DNA of 64,000 nt from Prostheceraeus crozeri. Taxonomy: Eukaryota; Platyhelminthes; Polycladida; Euryleptidae. Positions 2,557 to 50,500 of the stretch are shown here, in pieces. The stretch is from positions 124,001 through 188,000 of the forward strand of contig CAJQUW010006835.1 in NCBI GenBank assembly GCA_907163375.1, read 5' to 3'. The translations under genes were made by a program, and so were the position numbers. The notes under the pieces were generated by a model that saw only the letters and a list, made by a program, of their open reading frames with translations, made no database searches and was not told the origin of the DNA. Each line of letters opens with the position of its first letter. Within the stretch, counting starts at the first letter, position 1.

Positions 2557-3327
2557 ATGTACAGAGGACATGAGATAACTATAATAGCATTCTTCCGTCC
2601 ATAGAGGTCGGATATCTGTGTTGTATAGAGAGGACATGAGATAACTATGATGGTACTACTCCTCCGTCCATAGAGGTCGGATATCTGTGTTGTCTACAGA
2701 GGACATGAGATGACTATGATGGCACTCTTCTGTCCATAGAGGTCGGATATCTGTGTTGTGTAGAAGATATGAGATGACTATGATGGTTCTACTCCTCCGT
2801 CCATAGAGGTCGGATATCTGTGTTGTCTTCAGAGGACATGAGATGACTGTGATGGCACTCTTCTGTCCATAGAGGTCGGATATCTGTGTTGTGTAGAGAA
2901 GATATGAGATAAATATGATGGTACTACTCCTCCGTCCACAGAGGTCGGATATCTGTGTTGTGTAGAGAGGTCATGAGATAACTATGATGGTACTACTCCT
3001 CCGTCCATAGAGGTCGGATATCTGTGTTGTGTAGAGAGGACATGAGATAACTATGATGGCACTCTTCTGTCCATAGAGGTCGGATATCTGTGTTGTGTAG
3101 AGAGGTCATGAGATAACTATGATGGTACTACTCCTCCGTTCATAGAGGTCGGATATCTGTGTTGTGTAGAGAGGACATGAGATGACTATGATGGCACTCT
3201 TCTGTCCATAGAGGTCGGATATCTGTGTTGTGTAGAGAGGTCATGAGATAACTAAGATGGTACTACTCCTCCGTCCATAGAGGTCGGATATCTGTGTTGT
3301 GTAGAGAGGATATGAGATAACTATGAT
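2557..3327. repeat. Minisatellite, 67-70 bp unit, ~11.5 copies
   Basis: Tandem units contain GGTCGGATATCTGTGTTGT followed by a GAGGACATGAGATGACTATGATGG segment in pieces. Long units ending GTACTACTCCTCC and short units ending GCACTCTTCT mostly alternate, giving a dimeric higher-order period of about 136 bp. The array stops about 15 bp before the foldback element at 3342. The same unit reappears once and a half at 63597-63697, about 60 kb away. Confidence 0.9.
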
Positions 3328-3341
3328 CGGAAAAAGAATAT

Positions 3342-4237
3342 CAGTACGCGACAGCAAGTCTTAAACTTGGCATAAATCTACGGACACGTACATTTTTCAA
3401 CACCTTCTAAATTTTTGTGTTATTAAGAAATATCGACAAATTAATAATCATCTGAAAGAGAATTTTCGGATGTATCATTTGAATGTTGTTGAATTAATTG
3501 TTTCTGAGATTGGTGGTTCCTAGAGGCCCATAAACCTGAAAGCCCCAAATTTTCTTTGACTGGTTTTGACAAGCGCATAAATCAATTTGAAGCATTCTCC
3601 TTGTGATATTCAAAACCATCACAAGATTGGCTTTCAGAAAATATATAGTTTGAAAGTGTTTTCTCGAAGTTTATAGGCAATATTTTGAAAGTAGTATAAA
3701 TAGAAAATGTGGCGATTTTTTCATTGTCAGAATGTGTTGCGATAATAACAGAAATAACGCTGTTAACTAACTGGTGGCATTTATTTACCTCAAAGTTAGT
3801 GTTTTCTGCTTTTGTTGGGTAAATTTAAGGCCCTTCGAAGAAATATTCTGAAAATGAAAAAATCGCCACATTTTCTATTTATACTACTTTCAAAATATTG
3901 CCTATGAACTTCGAGAAAACACTATATAAACTATATATTTTCTGAAAGCCAATCTTGTGACGGTTTTGAATATCACAAGGAGAATGTTTCAAATTGATTT
4001 ATGCGCTTGTCAAAACCAGTCAAAGAAAATTTGGGGTTTTCGGGTTTATGGGCATCTAGGAACCACCAATCTCAAAAACAATTAATTCAACAATAGTCAA
4101 ATGATAGATCCGAGAATTCTCTTTCAGATGATTATAAATTTGTCGATATTTCTTAATAACACAAAAATTTAGAAGGTGTTGAAAAATGTACGTGTCCGTA
4201 GATTTATGCCTAGTTTCCAACTTGCTGTCGCGTACTG
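3342..4237. mobile_element. Foldback element with ~392-bp inverted arms
   Basis: Arms at about 3342-3733 and 3846-4237 are near-identical reverse complements around a ~112-bp loop. The outer ends read CAGTACGCGACAGCAAGT on the left and its complement on the right. TA lies next to both ends, which together with the CAGT terminus suggests a Tc1/mariner-type foldback, but no transposase is visible in the arms or loop. The loop itself contains a smaller imperfect stem. The high arm identity implies recent activity or gene conversion between the arms. Confidence 0.85.
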
Positions 4238-4782
4238 TATATTGCAAATGATTTTTCACCGCCCGAATTCTCAGCAATGAAGCACTCTCTAACCCCTTCT
4301 CTCTCTATCTCCCTCTCTACACGTCGAGATGGACAACATCATCTCAGAGCTCTCGCACACATACAGTTTGAACTGTCGGATCTCTCTCTCTCATTATATG
4401 AATCTCTGAGTGAAGAAATTCATTAGCACATTGAACGCACATTATCGAAATTACTTTCTCGCAGGAAATTATGAAATATAGAAGCAAGGGAATCCTTGCT
4501 TACTAATTGTTCAATACAGAAGGATTAAATGACTTGCATGTTTCACTCACCTCTGTATTCCCTCCCATTGACGTAATTACCGGTCCAGACAATTAATAAT
4601 CCTCTCAATGATGCAACTTTGTTGAAATCTGTCTAATTGATGTGAAAGGTCACAATAATGTCATCTCTCAACGTTACATGAGTATCCACCTGTAACTATC
4701 AATGTTACTGGAGAATGGAGATATCAGGAAAATTCAACTATTACCGAATCATCAAAGTCAAGTTGAATCACGGTTAGTGTGG

Positions 4783-11900: not shown

Positions 11901-12667
11901 CTTTGTATGGAGTCATCAGGGAGGAACCATGTGGCTGCATGAAGCAAGGTTTGAGCCCCTAACCTATTTCCTCTTCTTTTCCTTGATTATATCAAAGACG
12001 GAAAGACGCTTCTACAAAGTCTGTGGTGAACATGTTTAGCAAAGAAATTATTTCCCTTTTCTAACTTGAACCAGAACTTCATTTAGTTTTGTTTAATGTT
12101 AGTTGAGTCAAACTTTATAATAATATTTTCTTTTCATTTCATCCAGGGGTGAATGCAAACATTAGAATAAGTTAAAGCTAATAAGTCGTGGATTATTTGA
12201 TGTTCTCACATCTGATGCGAATTCAGCGTTGATTAGTGGACATCACGGTTCATTTTCAGCTGAACAGCCTACTTTGCGATCCTTGCGATTGGAATTGATA
12301 GTGCTACATGAAGAGATGGACACCCATCGAAAATCCAAGCCACTTCTCTACTACATAGAACGCAAATTTCTTCATTTGGAATGTAACAAGCGTACTGACA
12401 TTTGAAGGATAATACAGACCCGATTACATTAATTCAAACGTTAATCAAACATGTTTTACGCAGGTAGCCACACTTGCTGATTATTTTCCACAAATTTCAA
12501 CAGATGCAAACACACGGCGAGAGGTTGACCGGTTTGTGATCATCAGACTGCCCTCCACATGCCTGCGATGAGCCACTGTCATACGGTGCTATCACAATTG
12601 AAAGCTTGAGTGTAGAAATTGAGCAATTGAGTAATCGGAGCACAGTCAATACTGATTTCATTGCAGT
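8961..12667. other. Long stretch without a supported gene
   Basis: Nothing with a family signature is visible. The longest open frame (9004-9432, minus, 142 codons) has no motif I recognise. At 10104-10155 there is an AT-only self-complementary run (ATATATATAATATAATATTA type) that could extrude a cruciform. At 11670-11690 there is a short GGGGCCCTCGAATGCCCC near-palindrome. The rest is AT-rich background. Confidence 0.4.
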
Positions 12668-13249
12668 CATAGTCCGGCAGCCACCTCGAGTTTCTGCAGG
12701 GAACAAGGCCGACAATGAGACTTTCACAGACTGATGTACACTAGTCCGGCAGCCAGCACGAGTTTGTGCAGGGAACAAGGCCGACAATGAGACTTTCACG
12801 CAATGATGTACACCTCATAGTCCGGCAGCCAGCACGAGTTTGTGCAGGGAACAAGGCCGACAATGAGACTTTCACAGACTGATGTACACTTCATAGTCCG
12901 GCAGCCAGCACGAGTTTGTGCAGGGAACAAGGCCGACAATGAGACTTTCACGCAATGATGTGCACCTCATAGTCCGGCAGTCAGCACGAGTTTCTCCAGG
13001 GAACGAGGCCGACAATGAGACTTTCACAGAATGATGTACACCTATGCCTACTACGAAGTCGTGCCTCTGCCGAATCCTACCTGGTTCCTCTTCATGCTTT
13101 GATCATGTGTCACAAGATGAGGAACTAATTGGACCTCGGCAGACGTGCAAATTCGTAGTAGGCATGAGATACGCATCATTCTGTGAAAGTCTCATTTTCG
13201 GCTTTGTTCCCTGCACAAACTCGTGCTGGCTGCCGGACTATGAGGTGTG
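12668..13249. repeat. 76-bp minisatellite locus 1: five direct units, core, one inverted unit
   Basis: Five tandem units of 73-76 bp run from 12668 to 13043. Each contains AGTCCGGCAGCCAGCACGAG and ends near GACTTTCACAGAATGATGTA. They are followed by a ~125-bp core whose own ends are inverted (ATGCCTACTACGAA at 13044 and TTCGTAGTAGGCAT at ~13154-13167). After the core comes one unit in reverse orientation (13170-13249). The same core and inverted layout occurs, much larger, at 27316-29092, so this is a mobile or templated structure and not a simple satellite. Confidence 0.88.
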
Positions 13250-14086
13250 CAAGAGCGGCAAAACAGTCCTATAGAGATCTGAGTAACATTGACGATTTCA
13301 GACAGCAACAATTCTCCGAGTTTAAGACACTTCTTCCTATAGAATGCGTGTCGGCGAACTCATCGGTATATTCGAATTGCATTTGACGACTCAGTGATCG
13401 GCAGTGGTGTAAAATAATCCTACCAGTGTTGCGTTCTCGAGGAATTCGCAAATGTCTCAACATTTGATATTCCGTTTCGAACAGTCTAGCTTGAGCCTTA
13501 AATAAACGGAGATTTCATTCATGCGTCGTGTAGTTTAGTCTGAGGGTCGGTGAATTCCCTGACGATATAGGCTTACTTGTCTGTCTTCAAACATGTTTTA
13601 GAAATTTCACAGTCAATCGAATACAAAGTGAATTACGAATAATCTCGCTGTATGGCTAAGAAATATAAGGTATTACAAAGTCTCGAAACTTCAATTAAGA
13701 ATAAATATGACAAAGAAGCGCAAAAATAGCAAGTGCAACTATAATCGTGAGATGTTAATTACACTCAGCGCCAGTCATTTTGTAGTACATTTACATAAAT
13801 AAACACACTCGATACATCCGATAGAAATGATGGAAATCATTATAGTTGATAACGAGATGGAACATTTATGAATACATGTCGGAGAAGACTGCCATGATTA
13901 TATCTTAGGTAAGACGGCTGCACACATAGACTGATGATGTTTACAGCACGCGCTTATCAGGCAAACGAAAGACTATTTTTAGAAAGTGAATTTTTCAAGG
14001 TCATTCATTATCAATAGAAAGAAAAATACATGCAACTAATGAAAGTACATATTCTTTTAAAGTCGTGTGAGAATTGAGAGAATTTT

Positions 14087-16423: not shown

Positions 16424-17926
16424 CACAGAATTAGACAGGTCGTCTCTTCTTCTGTTTGACTAGAAAGGAAGCATTGGAACCTGTAATACCTATAAAATGG
16501 CACAATCTACTGACATAATACCATAGCAATCGAACAATGAGCAGCCGTTCAATATTAAACACGCCAAATTGTGCTAAGTTTCAGTGACTGTTATCAACCG
16601 GATCACAAAGCAAAGAGACACAGTCGATGTCAAGATCTACAGACAAGTTTGTCAACGTTTTTTCGTGCGCCTACTAACTTTTCTAAAAATAATCGGACTG
16701 CCCAACATTATCGAGAAAATTTTTGCTCAATGATCTGAATTATTCGAATCTGAAGCAGTCGTGGCGATCGGAGCATTTTGAAGGAATTCACAGCAATCCG
16801 CAAGCGACGCACAACTATTTTTCCTATCTCTGCAAGGTATTAAAAATTTCTTTTTGCCCACTTATTGAGTTCCTGCATGTGCCATCTGTTTGAATCAGTT
16901 TGCAGTTCTACAGAGTTGATCATAAAAAACGGACCACCTAGATGTCGTTGACGTTCAATCGATTCTCATGCTTTACAATCGCATCGCACAACAACGTACC
17001 ATACATCATTCGAGAGCTGGTATTCTCAGCTTTAAAATTAGCTATGATAGACTTGCATCCGTTATTGGATTTGCTGAGCAGTGTTTAAAATATGAAAATC
17101 ACTCAATTTACAAATCCCAATTTTTCAAAATGAAAACGTGTGAGTATGAGAATGAATCATACACGAGGAGAAAGAGCATTTTCTCAGCTCTCTTTTGACA
17201 TGCTGGTCATCAAAATGGGAGAACTAATAAAAGCTTTCACAAAATCATGACCTTTTTGATTGAAAATGTTTTGTTCTCTATTTTTCATCAAAAGTGTTCA
17301 TGTTTGGTATCTTCAGAATCCTTGCGATGTGAGGAGTTCGAATGTGTAAGTTAGATTCATATAAGCTCAATAGTTCTTTTTCAAACTTCTTCAATATTTG
17401 TTTTCATTTCCTCAAAAGTACACAAATGATGAAGGTAAGCAAACTGCGGCTGCTTTGAGAGAACAAAGAGATGCCTTCGCTAATTGTCTTGTTTTGAACC
17501 TTCGTTCACCCTACATGTTGTCTGTGTACTTAGAGATACCAAACATGAACACTTTTGATGAAAAGGTCATGATTTTGTGATAACTTCACGATATCACTCA
17601 TTTTTCATTAATTCTCCGATTTTGATGAGCAGCATGTCAAAAGAGAGCTGTGAAAATGCTCTTTCTCCTCGTGTCTGATTCATTCTCATACTCACATGTT
17701 TTCTGATTGAAAAATTACGATTTGTAAATTGAGTGATTTTCATATTTTGAACACTGCTCAGCAAATCCAATAACGGATGCAAGTCTATCATAGTTCATTT
17801 CAAAGCTGAGAATATAATGCATTTGGAAAGCATGAGAATCGATTGAACGTCAACGAAACTTACGTGGTCCGTTTTTTATGATCAACTCTGTAGCAGAGTG
17901 ACACGCTTAAACAATCTAATTCTGTG
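16424..17926 (-). mobile_element. hAT-like MITE family, copy 2, split by a Tc1-type insertion
   Basis: The left end is CACAGAATTAGA at 16424 and the right end TCTAATTCTGTG finishes at 17926. Relative to copy 1 it is inverted. Host sequence runs 16424-16908 and resumes at 17893 with the family's last ~34 bp. Between them is a 980-bp foldback at a TA. The flanking octamers TGTTCAAG and AATTTAAG agree at only five of eight positions, so the TSD is diverged, as expected for an older copy. Confidence 0.88.
16911..17890. mobile_element. Tc1-type foldback element nested in the MITE
   Basis: Termini CAGAGTTGATCATAAAAAAC and the complement are flanked by TA at 16909-16910 and 17891-17892. Inverted arms of 360-400 bp (16911-17312 and 17534-17890) surround a ~220-bp loop. 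Both arms encode the same peptide tail when read outward-in, containing RGERAFSQLSFDML and then GELIK or GELMK. A related left terminus (CAGAGTTGATCACAAAG) lies at 34209 next to a Tc1-like transposase remnant, which may represent the autonomous relative. Confidence 0.9.
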
Positions 17927-19437: not shown

Positions 19438-19842
19438 TACCTTCTCAGGGAACGAGGCTAACAATGAGACTTTCACAGAATGATGTACACCTCATAGTCC
19501 GGCAGCCAGCACGAGTTTCTGCAGGGAACGAGGCCGACAATGAGACTTTCACAGAATGATGTACATCTCATAGTCCGACAGCCAGAGCGAGTTTCTGCAG
19601 GGAACGAGGCCGAAAATGAGACTTTCACAGAATGATGTACATCTCATAGTCCGGCAGCCAACACGAGTTTGTGCAGGGAACAAGGCCGACAATGAGACTT
19701 TCACAGAATGATGTACACCTCATAGTCCGGCAGCCATCATGAGTTTCTGCAGGGAACGAGGCCGAAAATGAGACTTTCACAGAATGATGTACACCTCATA
19801 GTCCGGCAGGCAGCACGAGTTTGTGCAGGGAACGAGGTCGAA
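19438..19842 (+). repeat. 76-bp minisatellite locus 2, ~5.3 direct units
   Basis: Same unit as at 12668 and 27316 (CATAGTCCGGCAGCCAGCAC and GACTTTCACAGAATGATGTA). Full-unit starts fall near 19497, 19569, 19645, 19721 and 19797. Unlike the other two loci there is no core and no inverted arm, so this is either a decayed element or a simple derivative array. Confidence 0.92.
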
Positions 19843-23619: not shown

Positions 23620-25220
23620 CAGAACTACCAGAATCTATGATCATGATCCTTAACATGATTTGAAAATCAAACCAAAGCAATTTTGAAATCAGATAGCCTG
23701 CTTCTCTGTCCATTGTACATGCAAATTCTATGCATGATTTTCGTTGTAGAGGATGAAAAACTTTCTATGTGCTAATGTGTTTCAATGAAGGAGTGCAATA
23801 AAGACTGTTTATTGCACTCTTTGAAATTTATGCACACTGTGGAAAGCATAAACTATATTATGGAAGCAATAATCATAGAGATTATAGCACTGTGAAATAT
23901 AAACCCTTTTCCCGCATGATTGCCCCAGGAACGGGGCACATAGATATATCCTTTCCACCTCGTGAAAGCTAGAGACACCGAATGGTGAAGTCGATTCCCC
24001 GAGGTCGCTTGAAAGCAACTGCTATTGTCATGGAGAATAATATCTGCTGCAATCTTAAGCAATTTCCATACATTAATTAAAGTGACGATAACAATGTTTT
24101 CTGAGAAATGGAAGACAGACCTGCGCGACTGCTTTTACAAATCCACGTCACGTTTTTTCACTTTACTGCTAAGTAAACCTAATATCTCATTATTGACCAT
24201 CAATTTTGAGGCAATCAATTAATTTATGCATGAACTGTGAGACGGTCAAGTAATTGACATTGAATTTAAAGTCAATCAATTGATTTCCATTGAATATAGT
24301 CTGAATACTCATCTAAAGAAGACAAGAAGATGAAATCTTGAATTTTACCCTTTACAAAAAGAATGTGAACTTCTCTGAAACATTCCGAAGTTGCCTACAT
24401 TTGGATGCGTCTTGCTTGCATACATTCAGATCGATCTGCGGCTATCTACAGCGTTTCCTTTCAATTCAGGAATGTATGAGGTACATGTCTGTGTCTGTAA
24501 AAATACGATTTTGTGAAAAACTGGAACCAGACGTTGTTGACTATCCAATCATCAGACTGTTATCTAAATATGAGAGACATGATGAAGGAGATGAAACGAA
24601 ATATACATTTGCTTCAGACCGTGATCTCTGATCAAAATTTCCTCATTTGTGGCTGATTGATAACTTTCATTAGACGATGTGATGTTATTGCTATTTGCGC
24701 AACACTACGCAGATATCTTCAAACCTGAGGACAGATACTTTACATCTAAGCTTCAAACACGTGTCGTACAACTTCTACTCCACACTAATAGGGAGATTAT
24801 GCCAGCAGAATACATGTGGAAATCTATGCTTTTTCTTGAATTTTAGATGAAGCAGGTGTAGAATCTAGAGGCTGAAGGGTTTATTGACGAGCAGCTGTAA
24901 CAATATCGAATACAAACTGAGTCGTGGGCGAGGATTACATGCTGTTTTGTAGAAGCTGACGGACAGATTGAAAAATGTTGATTCCAGTCAACCTCAATCA
25001 CGAATGATTTTCAGGATTTGGAAAGGCCAAGTAAAAGTTGCTAGAATTTTAACTTTTTTCGATATTTTTCGGCTGTTCAGGTGCCGTGGCCATCATCAAG
25101 AAGACTGTGACTTGTATACAGATGGATCTTACATGAATGCAAAGCAAGCAAATCTCCCATAGAAGTCAAGCTATCCGCACATCGAAGATGGGAATTCAGC
25201 CAACCTCCGATTTCTACAGT
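23620..25220. other. No recognisable feature
   Basis: AT-rich. Two acceptor-like tracts near 25015 and 25080 are not followed by a convincing donor in an open frame. No repeats with other parts of the window were noticed. Confidence 0.3.
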
Positions 25221-25224
25221 CTAC

Positions 25225-25425
25225 AGCAGTGCTCCGCAACCCATGGGATGGTTCGCACTGATGCAGATAGGAAACATCATAGAGCTCGTGCATAAACATG
25301 TTGATCTCGAAAAATGCAATGAAGATGGATACTTTGCATCAGGGCTGTGGAGCCGGAGCCGAGCCGGAGCCGATGAGATAACGCATCGGCTCCACAGCCC
25401 TGCTTTGCACTTGTTGCGTACATGA
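25225..25425. repeat. Hairpin element, copy B, interrupted by a micro-hAT
   Basis: The right arm (GTTGATCTCGAAAAATGCAA, GATGGATACTTTGCA, then CTTGTTGCGTAC after the insertion) matches copies A and C in inverted orientation. The GAAGGGCGAGG loop is missing, so this copy is rearranged. It contains the 63-bp insertion at 25340-25402. Confidence 0.6.
25340..25402. mobile_element. 63-bp micro-MITE with hAT-type termini
   Basis: The termini are CAGGGCTGTGGAGCCG and its exact complement. The interior is little more than GGAGCCGAGCC repeats and a ~15-bp spacer. It is flanked by CTTTGCAT (25332-25339) and CTTTGCAC (25403-25410), a 7-of-8 match that fits an 8-bp TSD. The CAGGGCTGTGGAG start is typical of hAT-derived MITEs. 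Removing it restores the parent hairpin arm, which confirms that it is an insertion. Confidence 0.85.
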
Positions 25426-25429
25426 ATAT

Positions 25430-26240
25430 TACACACTCTTTTTCAAAATTAATGTTACAACTGTTGAAATATGTGAGCGTCTACAGCCGTTCAGTTTATT
25501 TGATTACAAAACTATCATTCGTCGACTGAAAAGTATTGATCTCCTCTTGAAGATTCAATATTATTACTGGCTGCATCTTTGCACGGTTGCATAAATCTAC
25601 TGCATAAAATTTTAAATGAAAATTTTGGCATCATCAGAAGTTAGAAAAATGAAAAGCAGATCAGTGTATAGACAAAAGAAAGTGATTTTAGAAAAGTATT
25701 TGGACTCACTCACAAGTCAATCATACGCGTAATTAAATACAGAATCATAACGAATGTTAAATTGCCCCGTTCATTTGTTAAGAAATTGGTAATATAAGCG
25801 TAATTTTCATTCAAATTTCAGTTCGTAACAATCTTATGCATAGAAGTAGACAATAGTGCACTTTCTATGATTTTGTTAATTTCTATGAATGCATATGCAC
25901 ATGCTTAGTACATAGATAGTGAGCCTTAGGTTATAATCTAACGTATAAATGCAGTACCACGGATATCACTCATCATTGTTTGCTTATTAATCATTTCATT
26001 ATCAATGAAAAAAGTCTTTTGTCATGGTGAATCGACAGACAGCGATTTTCTTATGGGATAGCTATTCGTCTAAGTGAAAGGCAGCTTACAACCAAAGAAA
26101 AGTGTAATGTGCTAAAATTTCAAGACAAACTCTCTGGATCGCTGACAAAGAGAATTTGTCATTAAGAAATGCAAAAATGGTATTCGATCAGGACGAAACA
26201 GATGTCCGGGGTGACATATGGTTTGGTTGGCGCTGTGAAC
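25430..26240. other. Small hairpin repeat copy 2 in otherwise plain sequence
   Basis: 25843-25896 (CATAGAAGTAGACAATAG to TTAATTTCTATG) is an inverted relative of the hairpins at 650 and 32835. Nothing else was recognised. Confidence 0.4.
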
Positions 26241-26246
26241 TTTACG

Positions 26247-26390
26247 TAATGGATAGAGGATGGCTATGCGATTCTCTGGGATATAGAGAGGGAAATTATT
26301 TGATGAATCCCGAGGGCTTTAGTTAGAGGGATATATCAAATAATTTCACGAGCTATGTCAGAGAATCGTATAGCTACCCTCTATCCGTTA
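26247..26390. repeat. 144-bp hairpin element
   Basis: Arms of about 65 bp: TAATGGATAGAGG and GCTATGCGATTCTCTG on the left pair with CAGAGAATCGTATAGC and CCTCTATCCGTTA on the right, with a few mismatches and a short loop (CCCGAGGGC). It is the size and shape of a small MITE. TA borders are possible but not unambiguous. Confidence 0.75.
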
Positions 26391-26394
26391 TAAA

Positions 26395-27310
26395 GTGTTT
26401 ATTGATGCCACAATCTTTTATTGACTCATTGATGCACAGAGCATGAATGATCGCATCTCATCAGTGACTACAGTTCGTAGAGATTTTAACCGATATTGAT
26501 CACTTGTTGACTTGAAAACATTTTAAATTAAAGTTCACAAGTGAATACACCCGTATGTAACATCAATTTTGATAAAGAGTGTATGTCAGATAATCTTTTT
26601 AAATGCGAGATTGTGCATGCATTTGATAAGCATCAGAGTCAGTGATCTGTGTGGCTGAAATGACGTTGCATACCACAATGAACCATGCTCCATTCCAATT
26701 TCAATTGACGCATTATGGGCAAGCTGTGTCTTGGATTACAGTCTAGGCCTACAGGTTTAACGGCATCACGCAGGAATTCTCTTAAGCGAAGTCAATGTTG
26801 CATACAGAGTTTGTTACATATGCAAATGTTTCTCCTTCCTTCATTGATTAATGCAAACTTTTTATCCTTCGACACAGAGGTGAAAAAGTCATTGCGTAGG
26901 GGTGAAGTACTTTTTAGAGAAAAACAAACATAAAATCTTAGTAACTCGGTTATACAAAGAAGTCTATTCATTTATCTTTTAGGCCGAAATACCATCATCG
27001 CGTGCACTTGCACACAACACGATAACTTTTTGTAAACATGAAAAGTTACAATGATGGAATCATTTCATCCGGTGAGCTGCAGAGATACAAAGATTCCTAT
27101 CATATAATTCATGTCGATATTATACAACATTTGACGACATTTATACAACCTACATAACAGATGACCTAGCGTCCAGACAAACAATTCAATACAACATTAA
27201 TATCTCTGAAGAGCACATGCAGATGTTTCTTAGTGGAGAAATTTCCTATTGTTTTATTTGTGACATTTAGAGACACCTCACAATCAATAAAAGTCTTGAA
27301 ATCTGGACAG
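26395..27310. other. No recognisable feature
   Basis: AT-rich DNA between the hairpin and the large palindrome. Short open frames only, without motifs. Confidence 0.3.
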
Positions 27311-27315
27311 CAATA

Positions 27316-29092
27316 TAGTCCGGCAGCCAGCACGAGTTTCTGTAGGGAACGAGGCCGAAAATGAGACTTTCAAAGAATGATATACACCTCATGGTCCGGC
27401 AGCCAGCCCGAATTTGTGCAGGGAACGGGGCCGAAAATGACACTTTCACAGAATGATGTGCACCTCATAGTCCGGCAGCCAGCATGAGTTTGTGCAGGGA
27501 ACGAGGCCAAAAATGAGACTTTCACAGAATGATGTACACCTCATAGTCCGGCAGCCAGCACGAGTTTTTGCAGGGAACGAGGCCGACAATGAGACTTTCA
27601 CAGAATGATGTGCACCTCATAGTCCGGCAGCCAGCACGAGTTTGTGCAGGGAACAAGGCCGACAATGAGACTTTCACGCAATGATGTACACCTCATAGTC
27701 CGGCAGCCAGCACGAGTTTGTGCAGGGAACGAGGCCGACAATGAGACTTTCACAGAATGATGTACACCTCATAGTCCGGCAGCCAGCACGAGTTTGTGCT
27801 TGGAACGAGGCCGACAATGAGACTTTCACAGAATGATGTACACCTCATGGTCCGGCAGCCAGCACGAGTTTTTGCAGGGAACAAGGCCGACAATGAGACT
27901 TTCACAGAATGATGTGCACCTCATAGTCCGGCAGCCAGCACGAGTTTGTGCAGGGAACGAGGCCGACAATGAGACTTTCACAGAATGATGTACACCCTAT
28001 GCCTACTACGAATCGGCACATCTGTAGAGTTCTAGTCAGTTCCTCTTCTTGTCAGACAAAAAATGCAATGAAACGCAGATTGCATTTTTTGACTAAAATG
28101 AAATTTTGTATGTTTTCTCTGATTAAACAAAAAGTACTAAGCCCAGACTCACAATTTTTGGCATGGAATTTCTTCAGGTTATTTCCTTTCATATTCATGC
28201 ACCGTCTATAAAGCTAAACACACTCAAATTTGGCGAGCCTCTTAATGTCGGCAAACATAAACATTTTGAGGAACTTTGACCTCATTCAACCACATTATCA
28301 CATGCATTGCCGATCATAGGCATGTTAATGCTATTCGTCTAATCAGAGAAAACATAGGAAATTTCATCTTAACCAAAAGCTTAAATCTGCGTCTCATGGA
28401 TTAACAGTGTTTCTATTTGATCGTGTCAAGAAGAGGAGCTAGATAGAGCTCGGCAGACGTGCAGATTCGCAGTAGACATAGGGTGTACATCATTCTGTGA
28501 AAGTCTCATTGTCGGCCTCGTTCCCTGCACAAACTCGTGCTGGCTGCCGCACTGTGAGGTGTACATCATTCTGTGAAAGTCTCATTGTCGGCCTCGTTCC
28601 CTGCACAAACTCGTGCTGGCTGCCGGACTATGAGGTGCACATCATTCTGTGAAAGTCTCATTGTCGGCCTCGTTCCCTGCACAAACTCGTGCTGGCTGCC
28701 GGACCATGAGGTGTACATCATTCTGTGAAAGTCTCATTGTCGGCCTCGTTCCCTGCAGAAACTCGTGCTGGCTGCCGGACTATGAGGTGTACATCATTCT
28801 GTGAAAGTCTCATTGTCGGCCTCGTTCCCTTCACAAACTCGTGCTGGATGCCGGACTATGAGGTGTACATCATTCTGTGAAAGTCTCATTGTCGGCCTCG
28901 TTCCCTGCAGAAACTCGTGCTGGCTGCCGGACTATGAGGTGTACATCATTCTGTGAAAGTCTCATTGTCGGCCTCGTTCCCTGCCGAAACTCGTGCTGGC
29001 TGCCGGACTATGAGGTGTACATCATTCTGTGAAAGTCTCATTGTCGGCCTCGTTCCCTGCAGAAACTCGCTTTGGCTGCCGGACTATGAGGT
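27316..29092. mobile_element. 1.8-kb palindromic element with head-to-head 76-bp arrays
   Basis: The left array (27316-27992) has nine units of ~76 bp in direct orientation, and the right array (28490-29092) has eight units in reverse orientation. They enclose a ~495-bp core. Core ends are themselves inverted: CCTACTACGAATCGGCACAT near 28003 pairs with sequence near 28465-28484, and TTTTCTCTGATTA near 28110 pairs with TAATCAGAGAAAA near 28340. Outer ends are TAGTCCGGCAGCC and its complement. The same architecture at 12668-13249 shows a heritable design. No coding capacity is evident. Foldback transposons with repeat-bearing arms are the closest known analogy. Confidence 0.85.
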
Positions 29093-29389
29093 GTGGATCC
29101 GCATTTTTCCTGTGGCCTTTTAACAACTTGCCTACTCCGCCTGACCTTTGTGGCTTCTAGTTTTTTTCGGAACGTAGGCCTACTGCTTTGAAGAACTAAA
29201 ATTTGCCACTTTTTCCAACCATTTTGTGTGACAACTTTTAACGAATCGCTTTCCATATGAGTATGAGTTTATGCGTCTATTGGAATAGTTCTTCATTTCA
29301 TGCATATACCGGTACATGTAGCTCAGTGTGTTTTGTATATTCTTTTAGGCCTATTATTGTGCGGTGAATTTCATGTGATTCGAATCAAC

Positions 29390-29942
29390 CACAGAATTAG
29401 ATTCATCTGCGCGCGCTTCGGTTTTCTAGAAAGGGAGGGTTGTATTTATCCTTAATGTCGAAATGGCACATCACAGAAGTGGACAACTTGCTCCTTCTCG
29501 AATAAATGTAATGAACAATAAGCTGTCAGCAGAGGACACCAGAGCCAGTGAGAGATGCGTGCGTGCTGTGATATCGCGTCGCACACACCAAAACACACAT
29601 CGATGCGTGGCTTCGATTCAGTGTATGCACTATGCAGTGAGCAATGCCGAGGAGAGGATGTGAAATCATCAAGTGAACTTATTTTCGCACGCCTGCTACT
29701 TTTTTTGACAATGATCGGGAGGGCCAACATTATGGAGAAAACTTGTGCGCAATGATCTGGATTCTTCGAATCTGAAGGAATTGTGGCAATCGAAGCAATT
29801 TGCTGGAACTCACATTAATCCGCAAGCGACGCATGACTTTTTTCCTATCTCTTTCAGGTATTAGGAATTCCTTTTTGTCCACTTAATAGGTTCCTCGATG
29901 TGCCGTCAATTTCGAATTGATCACACTTCTAGCAAACCGAAG
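29390..29942 (-). mobile_element. hAT-like MITE family, copy 3, truncated
   Basis: It starts with CACAGAATTAGA at 29390, in the same orientation as copy 2, and is recognisable through CACACTTCTAGCAAA at about 29922-29936. The last ~35 bp and the terminal TIR are missing where the DD37D element begins at 29943. A remnant of the short conserved frame ends at TGA 29754-29756. The expected continuation is not found at 32494, so the right end was deleted. Confidence 0.82.
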
Positions 29943-30030
29943 CAGGGTGCCCATTAAAAAAGGTAAATTAAGGCACATTCATTTCAAAATTTATCAAATT
30001 TCCATTGACTATCAACGCATGATAACAGCT

Positions 30031-31154
30031 ACCCTAGGTATTGAAGGTGACCACCGTCGACATCGAAGCATTTTTTAAGTCTTCCAATCCAAGAGTTTGC
30101 AGCTCTTTTTACCTTATCCATAGGGATGGCATCCCAAGAACCAACAAGACAAGTTTTCAGATCATCAATGTTCTGAATTTCAGTTCAGTTTCTTTGCACA
30201 TCTGATAGGAGTAAGGACCAGAGTAGTCCATCACATTCAAATCAGGACTTTTCGCTGGCCAAAGATCAGGGGAAATGAATTCAGGGCAATTTTCATCTAA
30301 CCATTGAATTGTTCTGCGTGCTGTATGAGCCTTCGCCCCATCCTGCTGCCAGCACCATGAATCACCATTCATCACATGATTAATGTCGTCGAACATTTGA
30401 GGCAACATCTCTTGCGTGTAAGTCTCTTGATTCACGGTTTTCTTTTTTCTTCGATATGCAGGTAAATGCTCTTGTCCTTCTGCATAACCTTCGACGAAAC
30501 GCAGTTCTGTCTTCCCGCACCAGGACATCGCACCGTAACACATAATCGTTTGTTGCTGCTTGTCCGACTCCACAACGAGATCTTCAGGCGGAATGTTTGT
30601 TTTGCAGGTGACAGATCGGTATATTCCTTCATTTTGATTGTTTACAGCAGGATGCAAGGAAAAACTGGCTTCATCTGAGAACCAAACACTATGCCATTGG
30701 CCTTCGAAGCGATTTATCAACTGCATCGACTTATGCTTTCTGGCATTTCTGTTCGTCTCGGTTAACCCTTGACACTGAACAGAACACGCTTACAGCATTT
30801 CAAATGAGATTCATCTTAAAAACTGTACTTTTCGAAATGTTCAGTTCATTGGCAATTTGCCGCTGACTGAAATGTCTTCTGCTTTTATCTGGTGGAGTAG
30901 CTAACTGCTAAAGTAACAATGGCTTCTCTCGTTGGTGAGGCAATGCATCGGCTTCGTCCACTTCCTTCTTTTCGACATTCTGCCACAGGAGATCCATATC
31001 TTTTAAGGTTAGAAACGACGCGGTCCATTTGTCTTTTTGTGATGTTACTGAAGAACTTAGGAAGCACTTCAGAGCATTTTGTTAAGCCCTATGTCGGATT
31101 TTCTTCTTTAAACAACAGTATTACTTTGCGCTGGAAGTCTGTAAGCTCTTGCAT
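30031..31154 (-). pseudogene. DD37D (maT-like) transposase, frameshifted
   Basis: From ATG at 31154 the N-terminal region reads MQELTDFQRKVILLFKEEN, meets a TAG at codon 22, and continues in the same frame through GRSRCIASPTREAIV to about 30885. After at least one frameshift the catalytic domain is open at 30157-30726. It contains WFSDEASF, WQQDGAKAH and SPDLNVMDYS. The second and third aspartates are separated by 37 residues, which defines the DD37D (maT) clade of the Tc1/mariner superfamily. A last frameshift gives a C-terminus ending near GHLQYLG at 30031. All three catalytic aspartates survive, but the stops make the protein non-functional. Confidence 0.88.
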
Positions 31155-31304
31155 TATTGCGAATTCGACTATCAATGATTTCTAGAACTTCAGTTCGCTG
31201 CTATAAATTTCAATACTTATCAGTTCTCTGTTTATTGTGTCGTCATAGGCCTAATGGTTTGATGGATATCTATAGTGACAAATTATTGAAAAATTTGAAT
31301 GCAC

Positions 31305-46817: not shown

Positions 46818-46932
46818 TTAAATACCTTTCCAAGTGATGCATTGTCTCAAAGGATTTGTAAAATAACTATTCTTTACCCTGTTTTGCAAATATTTACTGA
46901 CCATTGCGGAGATACAGCTCAAATGTCAATGT

Positions 46933-47504
46933 TTGACCTGGGAGCCCTTTCTTCAGCAATATGAGAAAATAAAACACACATTTTACCCGAATTTTCGTAT
47001 ATTGCTCTTTCAAGGATGTTATGCTGACTGGATTACAAGGGTAATTGAAATTTGAAATAACAATATAGGATATATGACAAAGTGAGACTCACTGAAACAT
47101 CGTAGAGCTATGCTACAACAGAGAACATTGTAAAACATTGATAAGCAAGTAAAAAATGAAAGTCATCTGAGGCCTTAGAAAGCCTGCCAACAGATTGACT
47201 TATCAAAGGATGTAAAGGCTTAGACCCCCAACTTTTCTTTCCTGACTTTCTATTTCTTCCATTTCCTCTATTTAATCTTTTTTAATTACTTACTTATCAA
47301 TGTTTCTACGATGTTCTAGTTGTACCACAGCTTTACGATTTTTAGTGAGTCTCACTTTGTCCTATATCCTATCTTGCTATTTCAGATTTCAATTATCCTT
47401 CTAATCCAGTCATCATAACATGCTTGACAGAGCAAAATGCAAAAATTTGGATAAAATATTTGTTTTTCTTTATCTTATTGCGGAAGAAAGGGCTCCCAGG
47501 CCAA
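46933..47504. mobile_element. 572-bp foldback element
   Basis: The left arm (46933-47160) starts TTGACCTGGGAGCCCTTTCT, and the right arm (47277-47504) ends with the complement of TTGGCCTGGGAGCCCTTTCT. Arms share AAAGTGAGACTCACT and AACATTGATAAG-type blocks. The spacer is ~116 bp of T-rich sequence. No coding region or clear TSD. Confidence 0.85.
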
Positions 47505-47509
47505 ATATC

Positions 47510-50500
47510 TGTATTGCGGTTGTTTCTGCATTAATTGCTTTATCATGACAGTCAATTCCTTGATAATTTGCTCAAAACAGTAAAAGATGTAATTTCACAT
47601 GCGGTGAAGAGTTCATTTGATGAAATCGATACCGTCATCACATTGGAGATGCAATTAATCTCTCTACCTAAACACACCTCCTCTATGACTTCTAATAGCT
47701 AATTCATAGCCATTTCAAGACATCACTTGTATTTTTGGAATGTTTTATCCAATTTAGTGACAAATGTGGCAATTTATTGATACGCAAATGATGGAGGATC
47801 ATTTAACCGGTGACCTTGTTCCCTCTTGACTTGGGAAGACTTGTTACATCGCAAGAATCACACAGCGCATCAATTACATAGATAATCCGATGTATCGCTC
47901 TTGGTTGATTTGGTGTTACAATTCCTAATTGCTTCTGAATCTCTATTAGGACTCTGACCGCGGAGAATCACTTGGCTCAATTCTCTAATTTCAGGAAATT
48001 ATCCTTCAAGAACTACTGATTCTACAAACGCAATAATCTCTAGAATATTTACCCTATCATCGACGAAGTTCAATTACATGTTGCCAAAAATCTTGTGTAT
48101 GATATCAGCACTGAGATAGAAAAGTCAGGAAGATTTCTGAAATGAAATGTTGATGAACTTTGTTATATGCTAGGAATTGATGAACAACAAAGCCATTATT
48201 GATTTTGTATACAGGCCTACACGATTAAGCCTTGCTGTTTAATACTCATCGACTTCGATGCATTTACCGGTAGAAGTCACTTTATTGACAATACTCGCGT
48301 TCTATGATATTAGTAATGTACATAATTACGTACGTTAAGTTATGAAATACACATTATAACTAAAAAAGTTAATTATAACCAAAATAACTAATTCTCTGCT
48401 TCGAAATTCTTTCATAATTTCCATGTCAAAATTGAGTAATAGCAACTTTAGTATGTAACTTGTTGCTATTGCCAATCCGTGAATGTTTTTCCTGTTCTTA
48501 TGTTGCTTATTCATTTGATGTTGTCTTGCCTTAAAAATTTTACATTTTATTCAGTTCTTGTAAAGTTGAATGCCTCACAATTCCCAATATTGGGGCTTGA
48601 AATACATACTTCATGATTATTGTTATTAAACGAATAGAATGTAATGAAAATTACGACAAAATTGCATGCTGTATGCTATATTTTCGTCATGTTAGTCTTA
48701 TTCAACAAGTTGCTTGTATTGCTTTACCTACTTGTATTATAATATCTTATTCAGGGTTATTGATATTATCAAATCTGTCATTTTTTCATCTGTTATGCTA
48801 CCTTTGATGATTTTCAATTGATTATTTTAATGTAATAAATTATTCTAAGAACACATGACAAACAATGAAGTGCATCAATGAATCACTATTATCATTATTT
48901 TAGTTATTTCAAATACTCACTTTTGAATTCTTAACTTACGCATATGGGATGCCTGATATTTGATTGATGGATGATTAAAGAATTTCAATTCGTATGAAAA
49001 ATCGCTTCTTCTTCAAACAACGTCATATAGATCATTTGACTCATTTCATGCATTATAATTACGTGCCCTTTATCTTCCTGTTTTTTTCAAAATATATGTC
49101 ATTTGATCGATTCATCACTTATCCAATTAAAGTGATATTCAACAATTATAATGACATTGTTGATTACCAGAATTGAAATTGAAGTCTCGCACAAGGAAAT
49201 AATTAATAAAATGTTTAAAAAGTGAAGCAAGTTGTTAGGAGGGCAATGAATGAAAATGACAATGATCGAATATGTCTGGGAAGTGTTTCAAAAATTGCAG
49301 CAAATGTCTCGACACGACTGAACTTGTATTCCATGACAGAATTTCTTCAAATTGTCGGAATCGTCACGACATTGTGAGAGATGGTGACCGTTTGCGACTG
49401 CTATACCAGAAGGTCAAATGTCAAGCGGATTATCATCCTGGAAAACTTCGATCAAATTCAAAAATGAAGTGATGGGTCCAGCCACTTCCTGCTTCATTCC
49501 GAACTTAAAGATCCAAATTCAAAACAAAATACACCAAAAGAAAGTTTTCATCATGACTAGTCAGAATATTCCCTGTGGGAACGAATCTTGCGAAAAACTG
49601 GCGGATGTCAGTTGCAGAATATCATGCTACAGTTCAGTCATATTTGCGGCATATTCTCTGGCGAAGTTCGCCGGCAACAATTCGCGCTCTATATGCCACC
49701 TTTTACTTTTGACTTTCTCTCATTTTCTTTAGTAATCGGCCTCTACAGCCGAGGCTCTATTTTCTCCCTCACCGCCTCACTATCCCCCCACATGGCTAAT
49801 CTATCTAAGATATAAGTGCAGACTATCATTCTTTGATAATGATAAGAATATAGAGAATCCCCTTATATCAATTTTCATAACATCTCTTGACATTCAATAA
49901 TTTACAACAATGACAAATGTTTGAATAATATCATAGTATTTACTGCGACATTTATGGAAGATAAAAACCTTTTAGTTTAAGCCTTCTTGAATTAAAAAAG
50001 ATTCCTTTTTATCGGATCAGACTGAGTATGCAATATATTTTCATGTGAAAGTAATATACGAACATTACTACTTACCATTAATTAGTTGCTACAATATCCA
50101 CGATTTCGCCGGTTGGCGAAAAATCAGCTCGCATTATTAAACAAATATCTACCAACCAATTATAGCAACTTTTTCGCCACCTGTCGTTTTTTAATTTTAC
50201 ACAATGTTTTTGGATAGATGATGACCATTTTCATATGCGGAGATATCTTTTACACGAAAATGATGATTATCAGCAATCTCACAGGGTTATCATTGATCTG
50301 ATATTCAAGGTCATTGTGGAGGTCAAAGGTTAAAAAGATGATTTTTTACTATGATTACTATCTCTTGCCCTATCTCAGAAACCATTTGACAAAATTCAAA
50401 ACAAAATACGCTACATGAAAGCGCTTACGATTAAGAGTGAGAATGTCATGATGAAAAGATGCAAGGAAGTAAAACGTTGAGAATAGAATACCAATAAATA

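Follow-up and report, generated by a model that had tools for sequence, protein, structure and literature searches.

Tandem repeats in transposon arms are already known in flies, and the closest known systems to the element described here are Tetris and Galileo. This element occupies positions 27315-29094 of a 64,000-nucleotide stretch (the window) of the genome of the flatworm Prostheceraeus crozieri (assembly GCA_907163375.1, contig CAJQUW010006835.1, positions 124,001 to 188,000). Foldback (FB) of Drosophila melanogaster and TU of sea urchin resemble it in their long inverted arms of tandem repeats and their foldback structure, whereas their repeat units are much shorter and their target site duplications (TSDs) longer; the TSD of Galileo is not 3 bp long either. 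A sea urchin foldback is cited in the account of Tetris/DAIBAM from Drosophila virilis (PMC4079207), whose passages on structure describe tandem repeats in the terminal inverted repeats (TIRs), an allelic pair of copies with 3 and 4 repeats, and the same repeats in long satellite-like arrays of up to 66 copies. Tetris is like the flatworm family in having a short form of the miniature inverted-repeat transposable element (MITE) type with common TIR ends, and those passages report no transposase for it; its repeats, however, are about 220 bp long and internal, separated from the end by a flanking domain of up to 866 bp, whereas the flatworm repeat is the terminus itself, and its TSD measures 8-10 bp against 3 bp (PMC4079207). 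The same account counts three structurally complete Tetris copies, against 22,728 flatworm termini (PMC4079207). Galileo F from Drosophila mojavensis shares with our element TIRs that expand and contract through tandem repeats, the two arms varying independently, but Galileo belongs to the P-element superfamily, and its repeats, about 210 bp long, lie about 264-467 bp inside the TIR and number two or three, compared with up to 19 in the flatworm family (PMC3573991). Its longest-TIR copies are described as non-autonomous, the tandem repeats of the TIR holding extra transposase binding sites (PMC3573991; PMC3688188). An earlier note on the window had spoken of a possible unrecognised element class, which was too strong given these TIR transposons with length-variable tandem-repeat arms (Tetris, PMC4079207; Galileo F, PMC3573991). 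The flatworm family differs from Tetris and Galileo in that its repeat unit is the terminus itself, in its 3-bp TSD, in its 22,728 termini and, relative to Galileo, in the number of units.

We interpret the locus, with a probability of roughly 0.85, as an insertion of an abundant, non-autonomous DNA transposon, near-palindromic and of the MITE or foldback type, whose ends have grown into minisatellites. Insertions of the family carry a 3-bp TSD, a related element has an empty counterpart site, the repeat unit consists of the terminal 73 bp of the element's TIR plus a TCA joiner, and copies of one insertion differ in unit number. At the locus itself, a left arm of nine tandem 76-bp units (27315-27996, + strand), whose outermost unit starts at the element end TAGTCC after the flank ..cagcaATA, faces a right arm of eight reversed 76-bp units recognised by unit matches (28482-29089, - strand). 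This is the arrangement that the earlier note had described, except that the core between the arms (27997-28481, + strand), with its palindromic ends, measures 485 bp rather than about 495. The core matches the inner part of the family's element of about 720 bp, and no open reading frame of at least 120 amino acids was found in it. Units in the arms recur with a period of 76 and are 90.8-100% identical to the unit consensus, and the inverted pair 27379-28054 / 28424-29099 extends over 676 nt at 93% identity. The right end is unclean: beyond the last full unit, the partial next unit GGTGT (29090-29094) passes directly into the unique flank ggatccgc. This junction is identical in the window and in a second assembled copy, L041 (L labels denote stretches fetched from the assembly and C labels contigs; L041 lies on contig C8700), which aligns to window positions 25150-31240 at 89-95%, and there is no TSD.

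The source assembly comprises 2.05 Gb in 14,165 contigs. A search with the window core gave 7,765 first-look candidates, from which the best 40, ranked by similarity to that core, were scored. The unit stood beside the core on at least one side at all 40 places and on both sides at 37, so that the proposed co-occurrence of core and unit held and, with the 3-bp TSD, the suggestion of a mobile foldback-like element was borne out. Contrary to the earlier reading, arrays do not define the element: no arm exceeded one unit at 33 of the 40 places, and only 7 had a longer arm (two sites being present twice among these), with unit numbers of 9+8, 9+1, 1+15, 16+4 and 3+1 among the scored places. The basic form is a non-coding, near-palindromic element of about 720 bp with one unit per arm and a TIR that starts TAGTCCGGCAGCCA; L021, for example, is 720 bp long with 294-bp inverted arms at 93% identity. 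Arrays are derived expansions of this MITE-like palindrome. Searching the assembly on both strands for the 41-bp terminus TAGTCCGGCAGCCAGAACGAGTTTCTGCAGGGAACGAGGCC with at most 2 mismatches yielded 11,320 + 11,408 = 22,728 matches, against 0 + 0 for the same pattern read backwards, which excludes a chance origin. Among about the first 100 of these matches listed, 23 convergent pairs lay within 2 kb, and 8 of the 23 were spaced by exactly 686 bases, corresponding to 727-bp elements. Strings of the terminus gave no match in a text search of the literature. In the main text of the P. crozieri genome paper, the whole words MITE, foldback, minisatellite, satellite and inverted repeat are absent, the plural "satellites" appearing in its repeat summary (PMC9469890).

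To define the TSD, 35 elements were examined, with an exact 3-bp duplication in 26, and three rows were then removed as same-site duplicates (L019 and L038, which repeat L020, and the first L036 element, which repeats L035). The 32 insertions kept were 31 main-family elements and one related element in L041; the window copies, L002 (which coincides with L041), L008, L013, L016, L025 and L028 had no clean pair of ends and stood outside the test. An exact 3-bp duplication was present in 23 of the 32, where 2000 shuffles averaged 2.0 and never exceeded 7, and a duplication with at most one mismatch in 28. Longer duplications were rare (4-bp match in 1/32, 8-bp match in 0/32). The flanking duplication that the earlier note had proposed to look for was thus found in the family, and at neither of the window's own elements. 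Two further elements in L053 also have exact TSDs (AAC and TAT). The duplicated sequence varies, with A or T as the middle base in 30 of 32 left flanks. The related element (L041:1330-2077) is a 748-bp palindrome with TAT on both sides that shares 72-74% identity with the main family over its 105-bp termini; at the corresponding place the window reads gacaTATggttt, an exact empty site with a single TAT at 26217-26219 (no strand assigned).

By its short length and TIRs (as in L021), fixed 3-bp TSD and high copy number, the family fits a MITE or non-autonomous TIR transposon, and by its long inverted arms with tandem repeats of variable length it is structurally of the foldback type. The usual MITE lacks arm arrays; in being abundant, short, non-coding and palindromic with a 3-bp TSD, the family otherwise resembles the MITEs of PIF/Harbinger, Zator and their relatives. 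Strict PIF/Harbinger elements duplicate the 3-bp sequence TWA, which accounted for just 2 of the 23 exact TSDs, and membership among them was rejected on that count. Membership among the Mutator-linked foldback elements (FB, Tetris), which have TSDs of 8-10 bp, was rejected on the 8-bp matches (0/32, against 23/32 at 3 bp), and Tc1/mariner, with its TA target duplication, on a TSD of 3 bp that in many cases has no TA. Helitrons and Helentrons, which may carry minisatellites, have asymmetric ends and neither TSD nor TIR, and were ruled out by the TIRs and the TSD. Zator has a 3-bp TSD (PMC10045372), a length by which the family would fit Zator among others.

Two more arrays of the unit lie in the window. 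In the first (12667-13251, + strand, by unit matches), five direct units (12667-13042) face a single reversed one (13174-13243), and the core ends CCTACTACGAA are those of the main locus, as had been noted. This locus does not differ in repeat number only, as had been claimed, because its core is a deletion form of 131 bp (13043-13173) instead of 485 bp. The second, missed in that two-locus description, is a solo array (19442-19841, + strand, by unit matches) that comprises four full and two partial units, 5.3 in all, has neither core nor reversed side and is broken mid-unit at both ends. A further array of 76-bp units (L044:3198-3555) is broken mid-unit on one side and runs off the fetched stretch. 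The second locus, too, closes on the right with a short piece of a next unit; near 29089, 13243 and L054:1029, at least 6-8 bases of a next unit follow the terminus at the right end of the array before unique flank begins, an overrun of uncertain length that against unit variants may reach 11-13 bases. The break points are similar at these three unrelated sites.

Unit numbers differed at each of the three array-carrying same-site pairs that we found. The insertion shared by the window and L041 has 9+8 units in the former and 9+19 unit hits in the latter, or 8 and 17 under a stricter count requiring a good unit start; the solo array, 5.3 units in the window, gives 14 hits over 1,004 bp (13.2 units) in L042, on the same contig as L041; and L035 and L036, with flanks 96% and 94% identical, have 16+4 and 2+1 units. 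The array-free same-site set L019, L020 and L038 has 1+1 throughout. The proposal that arms expand and contract around a conserved core thus stands for the arms and fails for the core of the second locus, deleted to 131 bp.

To examine how units are joined, we scanned the fetched DNA, all records minus three duplicates, with a junction pattern. The joiner was exactly TCA in 119 of 122 matches, one of the 119 falling at the right-hand break of the first element instead of at a tandem junction; L041, with the same flank there, probably adds a second such match, which would make it 117/120. Shortened units, among them one with a spacing of 72 bp at the second locus and two in L010 with a spacing of 64, are partly missed by the junction pattern. 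Sites that share the TCA joiner have different flanks. At column 19 of the unit, C is found in 51 of 56 mid-array units and A in 48 of 50 single-unit arms; at column 49, C in 42/56 and A in 50/50. Outermost units are mixed at column 19 (6 A, 4 C) and mostly of the array type at column 49 (3 A, 7 C), and carry the terminal-type C at column 28 in 9 of 10 cases, against 25 of 56 mid units. The arrays probably have a single origin, since the shared diagnostic bases and the one joiner are best explained by a single founding duplication of an end and its later spread; the match in length between joiner and TSD is no more than suggestive. In L010 a block of eight units is duplicated (identity 0.963 at lag 8, versus 0.86-0.90 at other lags), a mark of unequal exchange.

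Under the transposon interpretation, a transposase supplied in trans would move the family by cut-and-paste, and the first two-unit arm would have come from one founding tandem duplication of an end, comprising 3 bp of flank and the 73 bp. Arms could then lengthen and shorten independently through unequal exchange or replication slippage, array-bearing copies would spread through transposition or conversion between elements, and some arrays may have lost the partner end and persisted as solo minisatellites. Minisatellites and satellites have been proposed to arise, among other ways, from transposon ends, and this genome holds side by side the single-unit element, one-arm and two-arm expansions, the solo array and same-site length variants.

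Several observations weigh against this interpretation. No transposase or autonomous partner turned up, and no dedicated genome-wide transposase search was made. The same-site copies diverge by 4-11%, above the heterozygosity of 0.81-0.94% reported for P. crozieri (PMC9469890), so they could be haplotypes or segmental duplicates, and long-read assembly may have miscounted their units. Of six arms tested for block structure, L010 was clear and L041 weak (lag 6), the other four being flat or falling with distance. Finally, array-bearing copies, taken from the best 40 of the 7,765 core places plus chance finds (the second L036 element, L044, L052 and L054), have few TSDs. Among the eight with both ends seen, the TSD is exact in three (L006, L035 and L036b), has a single mismatch in L010 and is absent from L003, L054 and the window's two elements, compared with exact TSDs in 20 of 27 single-unit elements. 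Few cases thus speak for transposition of arrays as such, and conversion may have placed arrays in existing insertions. The array-bearing copies either moved or received their arrays through conversion, and they seem more prone to decay or breakage at the outer ends.

That arrays reach other insertions mainly through gene conversion or recombination among dispersed copies, and less by array-bearing elements transposing, is a serious though minority possibility. Exact TSDs in just 3/8 of these copies agree with it, as do the wide arm-length differences within single elements (1+15, 9+1, 16+4) and the derived bases common to array units across loci with mixed outer units, and exchange among copies has been argued for Galileo by its authors (PMC3573991). 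Array-bearing insertions with exact TSDs do exist, however (L006, L035, L036b), and transposition explains them as simply.

A more speculative reading, which we consider doubtful, is that of a multi-ended transposon, in which each 76-bp unit, a full terminus with a TSD-length joiner, would be a usable end and the arms stacks of alternative ends for transposase choice. Units would then be lost on moving, when an inner end is used, and gained in place, and the array would be maintained by transposase binding, beyond mere slippage. With the terminus itself as its repeat unit, the family offers a direct way to test whether the multiplication of ends alters transposition or just feeds satellite growth. 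The related proposal that transposase built the arrays, by repeatedly joining ends beside other ends through tandem insertion or aberrant end-joining, would make TCA a fossil 3-bp target duplication and each unit a complete alternative end. It accounts for a near-constant joiner (119/122) of TSD length, for units that all start exactly at the element terminus, and for the terminal-type base that outermost units keep at one of four diagnostic columns (column 28). We regard it as unlikely, because repeated insertion would vary the joiners, whereas a constant TCA across independent sites points to one founder and ordinary tandem amplification; outer units are also mixed or array-type at other diagnostic columns, and the L010 block duplication bears the signature of unequal exchange.

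That the unit-number differences are assembly artefacts is distinctly improbable. The L041 arrays do hold indels like those of noisy long reads, and the likely source assembly was made with PacBio reads and Flye (PMC9469890), but the differences are large (8 vs 19, 5.3 vs 13.2 and 16 vs 2 units) and occur at all three array-carrying same-site pairs, and the arrays, at most about 1.5 kb, are far below the reported read N50 of about 30 kb (PMC9469890). A rearranged satellite with no mobile element, as the solo array without core and broken mid-unit at both ends might suggest, is refuted by 22,728 dispersed termini, 3-bp TSDs and the empty site of the related element, and has next to no probability.

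Two candidates for longer forms of the family were rejected. Wide terminus spacing on C387 and C415 had raised a longer, possibly autonomous element, and proved instead to be an array (one unit, core and at least 13 units, continuing past the edge of the fetched DNA) and a pair of short elements separate from each other. L027 (1198 bp) owes its greater length to an interruption of the core; some 540 bp of different sequence (L027:1469-2004) lie just inside the left unit of this copy, probably as a nested insertion.

The window has a GC content of 38.2%. Near the main locus, positions 30030-31090 (- strand) hold what looks like a decayed transposase of the IS630/Tc1-mariner type with broken frames (Pfam DDE_3 at 21.1 bits, below the cut-off of 28.6; Sleeping Beauty chain 5cr4, E 2e-4); no link between it and the element's ends was found. 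To the right of the element (29390-29945) lies a distinct dispersed repeat, about 556 bp long, with 5,769 first-look candidates; the 39 other places scored are 86-91% identical. An 898-bp near-perfect, MITE-like palindrome with ends AGTACGCGACAGC is found at 3341-4238; a 69-bp array at 2558-3327 was discarded as its arm, being about 14 bp away and not within its arms. Two more long palindromes of other sequence (16908-17893 and 46910-47527) probably represent further foldback or MITE families. Elsewhere in the fetched DNA, L051 (contig C6227) contains mitochondrial COX1 inside a 612-codon open frame whose beginning lies far upstream of the usual start. The frame reads through TGA and contains AGA, with ATA at what we take to be conserved Ile positions and an AAA at a presumably conserved Asn, so that AAA seems to code for Asn; this codon use fits the echinoderm and flatworm mitochondrial code (table 9).
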